A stretch of DNA of 64,000 bases, from assembly GCA_946415785.1 (NCBI GenBank), contig CAMKTV010000002.1, positions 1 to 64,000 on the forward strand. Reading direction: 5' to 3'. This document shows, piece after piece, positions 1 through 5,045 of the stretch (its first letter is position 1; each line of letters opens with the position of its first letter). A program made the position numbers and the translations under genes. The DNA comes from an uncultured Solobacterium sp. (lineage in GTDB: Bacteria > Bacillota_I > Bacilli_A > Erysipelotrichales > Erysipelotrichaceae). Below the pieces are notes generated by a model. That model was not told the DNA's origin. It was given only the letters and a program-made list of their open reading frames with translations, and made no database searches.

Positions 1-366
1 AATATAGTTCGCTCTTTTATAAACATTTTTTGAGATTAAACATGCGTGGCCATTCTTTTCGATGAATTCACCCTCTAAATCATCACATGTTTCTTTAATG
101 CCTTTGTCTAATAAATAATCATCAATATAAATATTTGGATTATCTAAATCTTCAACATATATTACAATTCCATTAATGATTTTTTCATCATCTTCATTCA
201 GATAATATTTATAGTCATCTATATTCTCATCATCTTCTATTTTTTCTATCGTATCATAGCCTACAACAATTTCTTTGTCTTCATATCTTAGCATATAAAA
301 ATCTTCTCTTTTATATTTGCAAGATACAAGCAGAAATAAAGATAACAAGATAAATAATTTTTTCAT
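1..366 (-). CDS. Putative lipoprotein, C-terminus cut by window edge
   Basis: Minus-strand reading from ATG at 366: MKKLFILLSLFLLVSCKYKRED... with lipobox-like LVSC; open to window position 1; absent from ORF track. Confidence 0.65.
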   Translation of the reverse strand, partial: MKKLFILLSLFLLVSCKYKREDFYMLRYEDKEIVVGYDTIEKIEDDENIDDYKYYLNEDDEKIINGIVIYVEDLDNPNIYIDDYLLDKGIKETCDDLEGEFIEKNGHACLISKNVYKRANYI

Positions 367-896
367 ATGATTAACATCATTATATAAGCTATCGCAATTC
401 CAATAGCGAAACAACAAATATGATTTGTGCCATCAATTCCTGGTAAGATTGATATCACAACTAAACTGATTAAAGATAATAACATCTGTGAAATACCGCC
501 TATAAATCCATATAGATGTATCATCACTACTAACAAGGCGCCAATTAATGCGCAAACGCCTCCTGATGCTCCTAAACTATATAAGCTGCTTTCACCATTA
601 TCGTGATGAATCAATAATGATAATATGTGGCCAATTATAATTGAAACAAAATAAATTATTAAAAAGCCTTTAATGCCAAAATATAATTGAATAGCATTTC
701 CAACGTTATAAAGTGCCAACATATTAAAAAGAATATGATAAACACTCGCATGTCCAAAAGCGCTTGTGATTATGCGGTAATATTCCTTACGTCTAAAAAC
801 CGCATCATATGACTGAGCGATTTTTTCACTATTAATTTTCCCAGTAACTTGTAAAATATAAACAATAATGTTTATACCAATTAATATAAACAACAT
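363..896 (-). CDS. Rhomboid-family intramembrane serine protease
   Basis: Polytopic; GASGG serine motif, HILFNM, and C-terminal GTNHICCFAIG histidine. Confidence 0.85.
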   Translation of the reverse strand: MLFILIGINIIVYILQVTGKINSEKIAQSYDAVFRRKEYYRIITSAFGHASVYHILFNMLALYNVGNAIQLYFGIKGFLIIYFVSIIIGHILSLLIHHDNGESSLYSLGASGGVCALIGALLVVMIHLYGFIGGISQMLLSLISLVVISILPGIDGTNHICCFAIGIAIAYIMMLII

Positions 897-900
897 TTAA

Positions 901-2073
901 TTAAAAATATAAACTATCTACTTCTTGTAGCAACTCAAGAATGTTCTTTTCACAATGTTCAATAAACTTGCGACCTTCTTCATTTTCTAAACCTTTACGT
1001 CTAATAGTTCTACGCATCGCTCTTGCATAGCCTATTAAACGAGCTTTCTTAGCAATGTCTTCAATTTCTTTTTCATTTTTATCATTGAAATAATATTTCA
1101 ACGTTTTTTCCCAGATTTCTTTTCCAACTTCAAAATCAATACCTAAGAAGCTTTTACAAACTGAATGATCAACTTCACTGTAGCCCTGATATGCATTAAA
1201 AATAGAAGCAAATTCAAAGACTGGATGACCAACACATAATGTGTCCATATCAATCAACAATACTTCACCATCTTGTAACATGACATTCTTAATATGATAA
1301 TCGCCATGTAGCATTGTATCTGTTTCAGGAACTTCATTAACTAATCTTAAGAACTTTTCACTAGCTTCTTTTGGCAAATAATCACTTAGAAAACTTACCC
1401 AGTTAACTGCTACTTCTTTCATTCTTGGCATCAAGCCAGGTTTAACTTCTGTTGAATGAATCTTCTTTAATAGATCAACAGACATTTGTACAACCTTATC
1501 TACATCATTATTCTCTTTAATTAAATTCGCAAAAGATTTCGCATTTAATAATTCAAATACAGAGCCATATCCTTCACCAACTTTTACAACATCATAAGGA
1601 ATGGCTGTAGGAATACCTAGAATTAGAGCTGTTCTTGCGAGTTCTCTTTCTCTTTTAATATCAGGCAATGAGTCTGAATTGTAATAAGCCTTGACGATTG
1701 TATCAGGATCAATTCTATATACCTTACCATTAGCGCCTTGGCCAATTACTTCGCATCCTTCAACAGATATTACACGATATGCTTTTTGAATATCCATCAT
1801 TTCACTAAAGCCAGTGATTTCAAATATTTCATATACTTCATTACTTAATTCAACTACTTTAATATCTGGATAATTCTTTTTTAAACGAAGAATGATTCTT
1901 AAGCCTGCACTAGAAATATATTCCAAGCCTGAAGCATCAATGATGATATTGTTTGGTTTGTTTTCATCAATTAGTGCGTTGATTTCTTCTTCAACTACTT
2001 GTGAATTATTTGAATCAATATGACCTTTCAAATAAATAGTTAATACTTCATTTTCTTTTTTAGATTCAATCAT
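901..2073 (-). CDS. STAS domain fused to aminoglycoside-phosphotransferase-like kinase
   Basis: N-terminal STAS (LEYISSAGLRIIL) then kinase motifs VIGQGANGKVY, HGDYHIKNVM, LLIDMDT. Confidence 0.85.
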   Translation of the reverse strand: MIESKKENEVLTIYLKGHIDSNNSQVVEEEINALIDENKPNNIIIDASGLEYISSAGLRIILRLKKNYPDIKVVELSNEVYEIFEITGFSEMMDIQKAYRVISVEGCEVIGQGANGKVYRIDPDTIVKAYYNSDSLPDIKRERELARTALILGIPTAIPYDVVKVGEGYGSVFELLNAKSFANLIKENNDVDKVVQMSVDLLKKIHSTEVKPGLMPRMKEVAVNWVSFLSDYLPKEASEKFLRLVNEVPETDTMLHGDYHIKNVMLQDGEVLLIDMDTLCVGHPVFEFASIFNAYQGYSEVDHSVCKSFLGIDFEVGKEIWEKTLKYYFNDKNEKEIEDIAKKARLIGYARAMRRTIRRKGLENEEGRKFIEHCEKNILELLQEVDSLYF

Positions 2074-2642
2074 TTTTGGCCTCCAAATACTTTTTCTATT
2101 AAATCTATATATTCTTTATAAGCAACTGTATCTTTTAATTCATTTGTATATTCAGCAACTGAACGATAATACCATTCTTGTTTACGAGGATCTTTTTGAT
2201 GAAAGTCTTCCCATAGTTTTTCCTGTTTCTTTTGGTATAAACGATAGAATGAACGCATGTTTGATAATTTATCTGCTAACCATAATATCTTCACATCACG
2301 GTCGTCTGAATTCTTCAATTCATCTAATGATTCTTCTTTTCTAACCTGCCAAGAATCTTCTGGTAATATCTCTCTTCTTTTATCTTCTGTTTCTGAAGCA
2401 ACCAATTCTTTTACTCTAGGACCAAATTTTTCTTCAATTTCTTCTAAGCTGATATCAGCATCTTCAACTGTATCATGAAGCAATGCTGCAGCCAATACTT
2501 CTTGTTTCTCTGTTATTGAAGCTACAATTGCTGCCACTTCTACTGGATGAATAATAAAAGGCATGTTGTTACCTTTTCTAGTAACACCATTATGAGCTTT
2601 TTGTGCAAAATCTAAAGCATCTTCAAATAAACTGTACCCCAT
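2070..2642 (-). CDS. HD-domain (p)ppGpp-hydrolase-like (MESH1/SpoT-type) protein
   Basis: FAQKAHNGVTRKGNNMPFIIHPVEVA ... AAALLHDTVEDADIS HD motif. Confidence 0.85.
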   Translation of the reverse strand: MGYSLFEDALDFAQKAHNGVTRKGNNMPFIIHPVEVAAIVASITEKQEVLAAALLHDTVEDADISLEEIEEKFGPRVKELVASETEDKRREILPEDSWQVRKEESLDELKNSDDRDVKILWLADKLSNMRSFYRLYQKKQEKLWEDFHQKDPRKQEWYYRSVAEYTNELKDTVAYKEYIDLIEKVFGGQK

Positions 2643-2643
2643 C

Positions 2644-4740
2644 TTAAAAACCTTTCTTAATAGTTAATATATTCTTATTATCTGCATATTCATATTTCAC
2701 TTCATCCATTGTCTTCTTCACTAAATAAACACCAAGACCACCAACGCCTCTTTCTTCAGCATTTAAATTGATATCAGGTTCTTTATTTTCTAATGGATTA
2801 AATGGTTTGCCTTTGTCAATGAAAGAAATAGCTACTAAATGTTCATTTTCAGTATCAACTTTAATTGTTATATCTCCACCTTCTTCTTCATAGGCGTATT
2901 TGGCAATATTAGAGAATAATTCATCAATCGCTACAGCAATTTGTCTTTGAACCTTTTCAGGACAATTTAAAGCTTCTAATTTTTTGTCCACAAAAGCCGT
3001 AGCTGTTGGGATATTCTCAATATCAGCTTTTAAAGTTAATTCATTTGTTTCTTTTCCAAAATATCTAAGTGCTAGCATAGTAATGTCATCAAATCTAGGA
3101 GCCTCCCCTACAAATTCATCAATTCTTTGTTTAACATGATCTAATAGCTCAACAACTGAATAATTTGGATTATCATTCAAAGCATTCAATAAACGTTCAT
3201 TGCCAAATAATTCATTCTTATTATTTGTTGCCTCAGGAACACCATCAGTATAAACAAAGAAACTGTCGCCTGGTTTTAGTTGCATTTCATATGTATGATA
3301 TTTTAAATTCTCAAAGCCACCGATAACTAAACCATGCCTGTCTTTAATCATTTCATATTTATTGTCATTCATACATACGCAAGGATATTCATGCCCTGCA
3401 TTAGCAGCTTTTAATTTACCTGTTGAAATCTCTAAGATGCCAAGCCATACAGTCACAAACATTTCAACTGGGTTGTTCTTCACAATACGATTATTTACTT
3501 CTTGTAAGATTAAGCCTGGGTCATTTATACCGATTGTTGATAAGTTATTGATAACAATCTTGCTAGCCATCATGAATAAGGCAGCAGGAACACCCTTACC
3601 AGATACATCCGCAATCACGATAGCCAAATGATCATCATCAATTAAGAAGAAATCATAGAAGTCACCACCGACTTCTTTCGCTGTATACATTGATGCAAAT
3701 ATTTCAAATTCCATATGATCTGGAAAAGCAGGAAAGATATTTGGCAACATGCCTTCTTGAATCTGTGAAGCGACATTTAATTCAGCACCAATCTTTTCTT
3801 TTTCGCCAGTTATTTGAATGATATTAGCGACATGTTTAGAAATCTGTTTTTCCATATCTGCCATTATTAATGCAAGGCTTTCAATTTCATCTCCACTCTT
3901 AATTTTCAAATCAGAAAAATGCATCTTTGTATAATCACTATCGCTAATATATTCTCTTGCGGCATTATTCAAATCCAATATTGGCTGAACTACTGTCTTT
4001 TTCATTTTTCTAACAATCAATATATTTACGATTATTGTAACAATTAATAAGACTAAGAAATATTGTAATAAGAAATGTCTGCTTAAAGAAGCTACTTCAT
4101 TTAATGAAAAATAAGTAATGATATTTCCAATCACTTCACCATCATCTTCAATATTTCCAGAACCAATACAAGAATAACTGTTACGGCTTTCGTTTAAGAT
4201 GACTGGCATATTATCAACAATGGAATCAAAAATATTCTTTTCTTCTTCATTCATTATTTGAGTGTAGCCAGGTCTATTAGCTAAGCCTTCTTTATTAACA
4301 TCAAAAATGAAAATAAAGTTTCCATCTATTTCATAACCAACAATAATATTTCCAGCATCATTAGCTATGCAGTATTCTTTTAATTTATCGATGATGTCAT
4401 TATAATTTTCATCAATTAGTGATGTGAATGATTCAAGATAAGCTGAACTATTAACATTTTCTTTAACATCTTGTCTTAATCCTGCATAGATTTCTTTTGT
4501 CTTTGAAACATAATCTCTTATGTTTTCTTTATCTAAAGCTAATCCAACATTATTAGCTAATGATTTAGCTTTATCGATATATTGTTCCCTTGTTGCATTT
4601 GAATATAAATAAAAACCAAAAGCTACGGCAACTAAGCTTAGAATTATTGAAAAATTTAAAATGACATGAAACATTTTCGTGCTTAACGAGTAATGCAAAC
4701 GCTCGAAGTAGTTCATCTCTCGAATACTTTTTCTTGGCAT
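2644..4740 (-). CDS. Membrane sensor with SpoIIE/PP2C phosphatase and C-terminal RsbW-like HATPase domain
   Basis: TM-extracellular-TM-HAMP region; PP2C motifs GGDFYDFF, IADVSGKGVPAALFM, DDITMLALR; C-terminal AIDELFSNIAKYAY ... GVGGLGVYLVKKTMD. Confidence 0.88.
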   Translation of the reverse strand: MPRKSIREMNYFERLHYSLSTKMFHVILNFSIILSLVAVAFGFYLYSNATREQYIDKAKSLANNVGLALDKENIRDYVSKTKEIYAGLRQDVKENVNSSAYLESFTSLIDENYNDIIDKLKEYCIANDAGNIIVGYEIDGNFIFIFDVNKEGLANRPGYTQIMNEEEKNIFDSIVDNMPVILNESRNSYSCIGSGNIEDDGEVIGNIITYFSLNEVASLSRHFLLQYFLVLLIVTIIVNILIVRKMKKTVVQPILDLNNAAREYISDSDYTKMHFSDLKIKSGDEIESLALIMADMEKQISKHVANIIQITGEKEKIGAELNVASQIQEGMLPNIFPAFPDHMEFEIFASMYTAKEVGGDFYDFFLIDDDHLAIVIADVSGKGVPAALFMMASKIVINNLSTIGINDPGLILQEVNNRIVKNNPVEMFVTVWLGILEISTGKLKAANAGHEYPCVCMNDNKYEMIKDRHGLVIGGFENLKYHTYEMQLKPGDSFFVYTDGVPEATNNKNELFGNERLLNALNDNPNYSVVELLDHVKQRIDEFVGEAPRFDDITMLALRYFGKETNELTLKADIENIPTATAFVDKKLEALNCPEKVQRQIAVAIDELFSNIAKYAYEEEGGDITIKVDTENEHLVAISFIDKGKPFNPLENKEPDINLNAEERGVGGLGVYLVKKTMDEVKYEYADNKNILTIKKGF

Positions 4741-4742
4741 AA

Positions 4743-5045
4743 TTATTTATTAATAGTTAAAATATCACTAAATCCTGTTACATCAAATATTTCAAGAATC
4801 ATCTCATTACAGCCTGTAAGATACATCTTGCCGCCTTTATGATTCATCTCTTTTAATGTTGATAAAAGAATTCTCAAACCAGCACTTGAAATATATTCTA
4901 ATTCAGAAAAATCAAATTCTAATTCTTTAATTTCTTCTAGTTGCCCTTTTAATTCTTCTTCTAATTCTGGAGAAGTTAATGAGTCAAGACGACCTATTAC
5001 TTTAATAACTTCTTTTTCTTTTTCTATTGTTTTGTTTATTTGCAT
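4743..5045 (-). CDS. STAS-domain anti-sigma factor antagonist (RsbV/SpoIIAA-like)
   Basis: 100 aa; LEYISSAGLRILLSTLK phosphoserine-site signature. Confidence 0.9.
   Translation of the reverse strand: MQINKTIEKEKEVIKVIGRLDSLTSPELEEELKGQLEEIKELEFDFSELEYISSAGLRILLSTLKEMNHKGGKMYLTGCNEMILEIFDVTGFSDILTINK

Follow-up and report, generated by a model that had tools for sequence, protein, structure and literature searches.

Partner switching normally controls sigma factors. Some systems of this type are known to act on an enzyme. In the SiaABCD system of Pseudomonas aeruginosa, the diguanylate cyclase SiaD is controlled through a small protein whose phosphorylation depends on a PP2C phosphatase and a kinase (PMC7647112, PMC8457831). 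Further, an anti-anti-sigma-type protein is linked to a diguanylate cyclase in the HptB-HsbR-HsbA system with HsbD (PMC5085249), and the recognition of STAS proteins by such phosphatases has been described (PMC11418112). We analyzed a related locus in an uncultured Solobacterium sp. (GCA_946415785.1, contig CAMKTV010000002.1, positions 1 to 64,000; this whole stretch of 64,000 nt is referred to here as the window). We consider it likely, at a probability of roughly 70%, that the locus encodes a partner-switching module with an enzyme client, a STAS-APH kinase fusion, in the place usually taken by a sigma factor.

The locus is a run of five genes on the minus strand, in the order STAS, SpoIIE plus HATPase_c_2, HD_4, STAS-APH and rhomboid, with intergenic spacings of +2, +1, -4 and +4 bp. 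A sequence-only reading of this DNA had named an RsbV-like STAS protein, a phosphatase that also carries an RsbW-like ATPase, an HD protein and a STAS-kinase fusion. The open reading frames and their Pfam domains agreed with these assignments, and the spacings agreed with the nearly contiguous, overlapping arrangement that it had described. All domains of the operon scored far above the Pfam cut-offs, and chance matches were therefore excluded. In a promoter scan, the number of sites was not above chance. With the exception of the rhomboid gene, the block was kept in related genomes, where its catalytic motifs were conserved. The final gene of the run encodes a rhomboid protease of 177 aa (363..896, minus strand; PF01694, E = 9e-24). 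The same reading had placed a rhomboid after the module, and one is present there in the window; however, a rhomboid gene adjoined the module otherwise only in the nearest relative, G001, and was therefore rejected as a part of the core module.

The first gene (4743..5045, minus strand) encodes a stand-alone, RsbV-like STAS protein of 100 aa (PF01740, E = 5e-18; TIGR00377 above cut-off), whose closest PDB chains include RsbV (6m36_B) and SpoIIAA (1th8_B). It contains the phosphosite-like motif YISSAGLR, and S53, S54, A55 and G56 were conserved in at least 95% of 32 aligned STAS proteins. This SSAG motif, found in both the stand-alone and the fused STAS domain, would supply the phosphorylatable serine in helix 2 that is characteristic of partner switches.

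The second gene (2644..4740, minus strand) encodes a membrane sensor phosphatase-kinase of 698 aa (PF07228, E = 6e-48; PF13581, E = 3e-20), in which two predicted transmembrane segments flank an extracytoplasmic region (hydropathy peaks in segments starting near residues 23-27 and 222-228). Its phosphatase domain (3061..3639) is a SpoIIE/RsbU-type PP2C domain, in which the metal-ligand aspartates D360, D378, D499 and D552 were conserved at 95% or more in 22 sequences; the closest solved PP2C structure is 6k4e. In the C-terminal HATPase_c_2 domain (2653..3030), the ExxxN and GGLG motifs were conserved at 95% or more in 31 sequences, and RsbW (6m36_A) was the sole PDB match. These motifs and this match, with PF13581 above its cut-off, point to an RsbW-type kinase. 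A second SpoIIE phosphatase is encoded elsewhere in the same genome (G000:C3:7157-7732, 836 aa frame), unlinked to the module, and is a possible second input. An MscS-type channel gene lies immediately upstream of the module at L055:3349-4179 and in many other loci of the genus; it may hint at the stimulus. Other RsbW-like ATPases of the window genome were rejected as partners, the sole one above the cut-off (C20) being located in a hydrogenase-type gene cluster (L004:1456-1872).

The fourth gene (901..2073, minus strand) encodes the STAS-APH fusion of 390 aa (PF01740, E = 2e-15; PF01636, E = 1e-14). Its STAS domain (1783..2070) carries the conserved residues S54, S55, A56 and G57. The APH kinase domain (1192..1752) has the elements of an APH-fold kinase, namely a glycine loop, a lysine (K128), E142, the motif H256 G257 D258 ... 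N263 and the metal-binding aspartates D275/D277. In 29 sequences, SSAG, the glycine loop, K128, E142, HGDYH....N and IDMDTL were conserved at 95% or more. An AlphaFold model of the fusion (pLDDT 93.7, pTM 0.81) gave antibiotic, methylthioribose and choline-type small-molecule kinases of the APH fold as the best Foldseek matches. The TIGR02172 model matched the protein with E = 6e-30 and 104.7 bits, below its curated cut-off of 228.2 bits. A role in aminoglycoside resistance was rejected, as the APH fold alone does not suffice for it and identity was just 10-20% in the Foldseek matches listed. We found no paper on a STAS-APH fusion in the open-access literature searched, although such work may exist elsewhere, and none in the literature searched that mentions the TIGR02172 family.

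A near full-length STAS-APH gene was present in 29 of the 36 genomes of the genus, and in G056, which belongs to another family. An RsbW-like ATPase was encoded in the same run at 27 of the 29 genus-set loci, and the two remaining loci lie at the end of a contig or close to it. None of the parts was found in three genomes of the genus (G007, G016 and G025; 95-97% complete): STAS, SpoIIE, an RsbW-like ATPase above cut-off, STAS-APH and HD were all absent. The nearest relative, G001 (99% complete), encodes two STAS domains, one SpoIIE protein, the module ATPase and a further ATPase of 140 aa, and has sigma region 3 in RpoD only; the 140-aa ATPase resembles in size that of the hydrogenase-type cluster in the window genome.

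Scanning of GTDB genomes yielded at least 580 confirmed relatives of STAS-APH, the best 80 of which were mostly from gut and rumen Firmicutes. These 80 yielded a broad set of 78 loci with a usable gene. Within this set, drawn from the best 80 of at least 580 relatives, the ATPase was fused to STAS-APH in 28 loci and encoded close by, on the same strand, in 34. For six of the 28 fused proteins, Pfam confirmed that a single chain contains the STAS, APH and HATPase domains. All 28 were placed within one supported group of 34 rows in a tree (SH-aLRT 100), suggesting mainly a single origin of the triple fusion, followed by spread across families and, in part, by loss or splitting; the 28 cases are therefore not independent. 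The ATPase is C-terminal in the fused proteins and is encoded upstream of STAS-APH in the window type; the two are thus associated in two or more arrangements. The distribution of the module is patchy, as STAS-APH was found in 12 of 392 genomes drawn from the phylum. Eight loci of the broad set (from the best 80 of at least 580 relatives) had flanks of more than 3 kb on both sides and no same-strand ATPase within 6 kb; one of these, L140, has an ATPase on the opposite strand. No common partner emerged from the neighbours of such orphan STAS-APH loci.

The third gene (2070..2642, minus strand) encodes an HD_4 protein of 190 aa (PF13328, E = 2e-23) of the small-alarmone-hydrolase type. It has the full set of Rel/Mesh1-like hydrolase residues (R22, K23, H32, H56, D57, E60, D61, D124 and N128), conserved at 95% or more in 16 sequences, and no synthetase domain. 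Its closest PDB entries are 7qoe, Rel (6s2t), Lmo0812 (4yf1) and 7qoc. The sequence-only reading had proposed the STAS-kinase and the HD enzyme together as the output of the switch. A true co-output, in which the HD protein and STAS-APH share a metabolite or act on linked ones, would refine the enzyme-client model and does not exclude it. The intact hydrolase residues agree with this proposal, and the HD gene lies directly upstream of STAS-APH, overlapping it or nearly so, in 15 loci of the genus and directly upstream in 21 of the 78 broad loci (from the best 80 of at least 580 relatives). Further, close homologues of the HD protein within the genus occur at STAS-APH loci only. However, the protein lacks a STAS domain and is missing from many otherwise intact modules. 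The case for a second output is thus weaker than that for STAS-APH, and we regard it as possible but rather doubtful; the HD protein may simply be co-expressed, and is probably an accessory hydrolase that acts on (p)ppGpp or a similar nucleotide. The part of the earlier proposal that concerns the STAS-kinase stands on firmer ground, as the ATPase is fused or adjacent to it, the parts co-occur and no SigB/SigF-like factor was found in nearly all genomes of the genus.

The evidence on sigma factors bears on whether the module could be a classical switch, in which the ATPase would be the anti-sigma factor of an unlinked sigma factor (the SigH-like protein, the ECF protein, or a SigB/SigF-type protein in the unassembled 12% of the genome) and STAS-APH would be a side effector or a second antagonist. 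Sigma control is the normal role of such proteins, and the window genome (1.37 Mb) is just 88% complete. Its matches to sigma region 2 were RpoD, a SigH-like protein beside rlmB and an ECF protein, and region 3 was present in RpoD only. No SigB/SigF-like sigma factor was found in a genome-wide search of this 88% complete genome, and the earlier statement that no sigma factor is visible at the locus thus extends, for SigB/SigF types, to the genome as a whole. Genus-wide searches argue against an assembly gap as the main explanation: region 3 occurred once, in RpoD, in nearly every genome of the genus, near-complete genomes included. In contrast, many other genomes of the order carry three region-3 sigma factors, and several of these have a STAS gene at a distance of about 1 kb from a gene for a sigma factor of about 245 residues, an arrangement expected of spoIIAA-sigF, which these pairs may be.

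Further, the module-lacking genomes G007, G016 and G025 retain three sigma factors each, and therefore no sigma gene visibly tracks the module. One module (L127) has a sigma gene directly upstream, the sole such case; this gene was rejected as a client, as it is SigH-like and follows rlmB, its usual position. Many relatives have the ATPase fused to STAS-APH, whereas we saw no sigma fusion. For these reasons we consider a classical switch unlikely. The module appears from its components to work like a partner switch but is not classed as sigma-controlling. Still less probable is that STAS-APH is a protein kinase that phosphorylates another component such as the HD protein: APH-fold kinases are related to protein kinases and HD is a close neighbour in many loci, but the best Foldseek matches are small-molecule kinases and many modules have no HD protein.

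Comparative genomics gives good support to STAS-APH, and not a sigma factor, as the output of the switch, because the ATPase adjoins or is fused with STAS-APH in many taxa, the parts are present or absent together and no SigB/SigF-like factor was found in nearly all genomes of the genus. We infer the following sequence of events, including the direction of its effect. The membrane protein would sense an outside cue, and its PP2C domain would dephosphorylate the serines of both STAS domains, which the RsbW-like ATPase domain would rephosphorylate. One ATPase would have two alternative, competing partners, the stand-alone STAS protein and the fused STAS domain, and therefore the balance of phosphorylation would decide whether STAS-APH is held, phosphorylated or free. 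Either competition or phosphorylation would gate the APH kinase, and the state of STAS-APH would set the activity of the kinase on a small molecule. The switch appears to be coupled directly to a small-molecule kinase; therefore, in this lineage and many relatives, it probably acts on metabolism or signalling without a prior change in transcription.

Partner switching is usually described as freeing sigma factors; the genome comparisons made here suggest a widespread form with an enzyme client. The switch and the enzyme are sometimes in one chain, offering a compact, testable system for the control of catalysis by STAS phosphorylation. Annotations of 'anti-sigma factor' in gut and rumen bacteria would be reinterpreted, and a possible alarmone hydrolase would be placed within a partner switch.

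Other enzymes with STAS domains were observed in the genomes that we searched. Within the genus, Cof-type HAD phosphatases with a fused STAS domain are encoded at L044:3716-4798, L054:3539-4690, L065:7579-8670, L078:7757-8869 and other loci; the STAS-HAD gene is next to STAS-APH in some genomes, and in L078/L079 it has genes for a STAS protein, an RsbW-like ATPase and a histidine kinase/response regulator of its own nearby. The genus also has a STAS domain fused to an AMP-binding (acyl-CoA-ligase-like) enzyme (L075:2390-4276 and L074:485-2368), and a GH3-family ligase with a C-terminal STAS domain is encoded beside STAS-APH (L109:13490-15532). Such proteins suggest that STAS serves more widely as a tag on enzymes. 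Further, MATE transporters with a C-terminal RsbW-like ATPase were observed at L060:942-2687, L053:662-2407 and L109:11683-13461, the last also beside STAS-APH; Pfam shows both domains in L060, and family matches support L053 and L109. Within the genus, similar frames of 580-610 residues that match an ATPase were seen repeatedly. We tentatively suggest, at a little less than even odds, that in gut and rumen Firmicutes STAS is a general regulatory tag on metabolic enzymes (APH kinases, HAD phosphatases, AMP-binding and GH3 ligases), with partner-switching kinase-phosphatase pairs exerting direct post-translational control over these enzymes and possibly over RsbW-tagged MATE transporters.

The module shares its protein families and motifs (PP2C phosphatase, STAS antagonist and HATPase_c_2 kinase) with RsbU/RsbV/RsbW and SpoIIE/SpoIIAA/SpoIIAB. 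Unlike those systems, it has the phosphatase and the ATPase in one chain and a second STAS domain fused to an APH kinase, and no cognate SigB/SigF was found for it. Rv1364c of Mycobacterium tuberculosis (3ke6), which was among the PDB matches of the phosphatase, also combines phosphatase and RsbW-like domains in one chain, but lacks an APH kinase. The TIGR02172 APH-like family is the nearest model to the APH domain; STAS-APH differs by the added STAS domain and the score below cut-off. The HD protein belongs to the same family as the small alarmone hydrolases (7qoe, 4yf1, 7qoc and Mesh1) and has the same catalytic residues, but is encoded inside a partner-switching operon. The gene content, fusion and co-occurrence appear to fit a SiaABCD-type control of an enzyme through a STAS-like protein. 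The SiaA model matched the operon only below its cut-off, and no cyclase domain of the SiaD type scored above cut-off among the operon proteins, which matched APH and HD families. Further, SiaC binds a separate cyclase, whereas the STAS domain of the module is built into the APH kinase. HptB-HsbR-HsbA/HsbD differs from the module in its components and output, and we know of no STAS-enzyme fusion in that system. Enzyme-output partner switches are thus already represented by SiaABCD and HsbA/HsbD, and the STAS-APH module is a further version.
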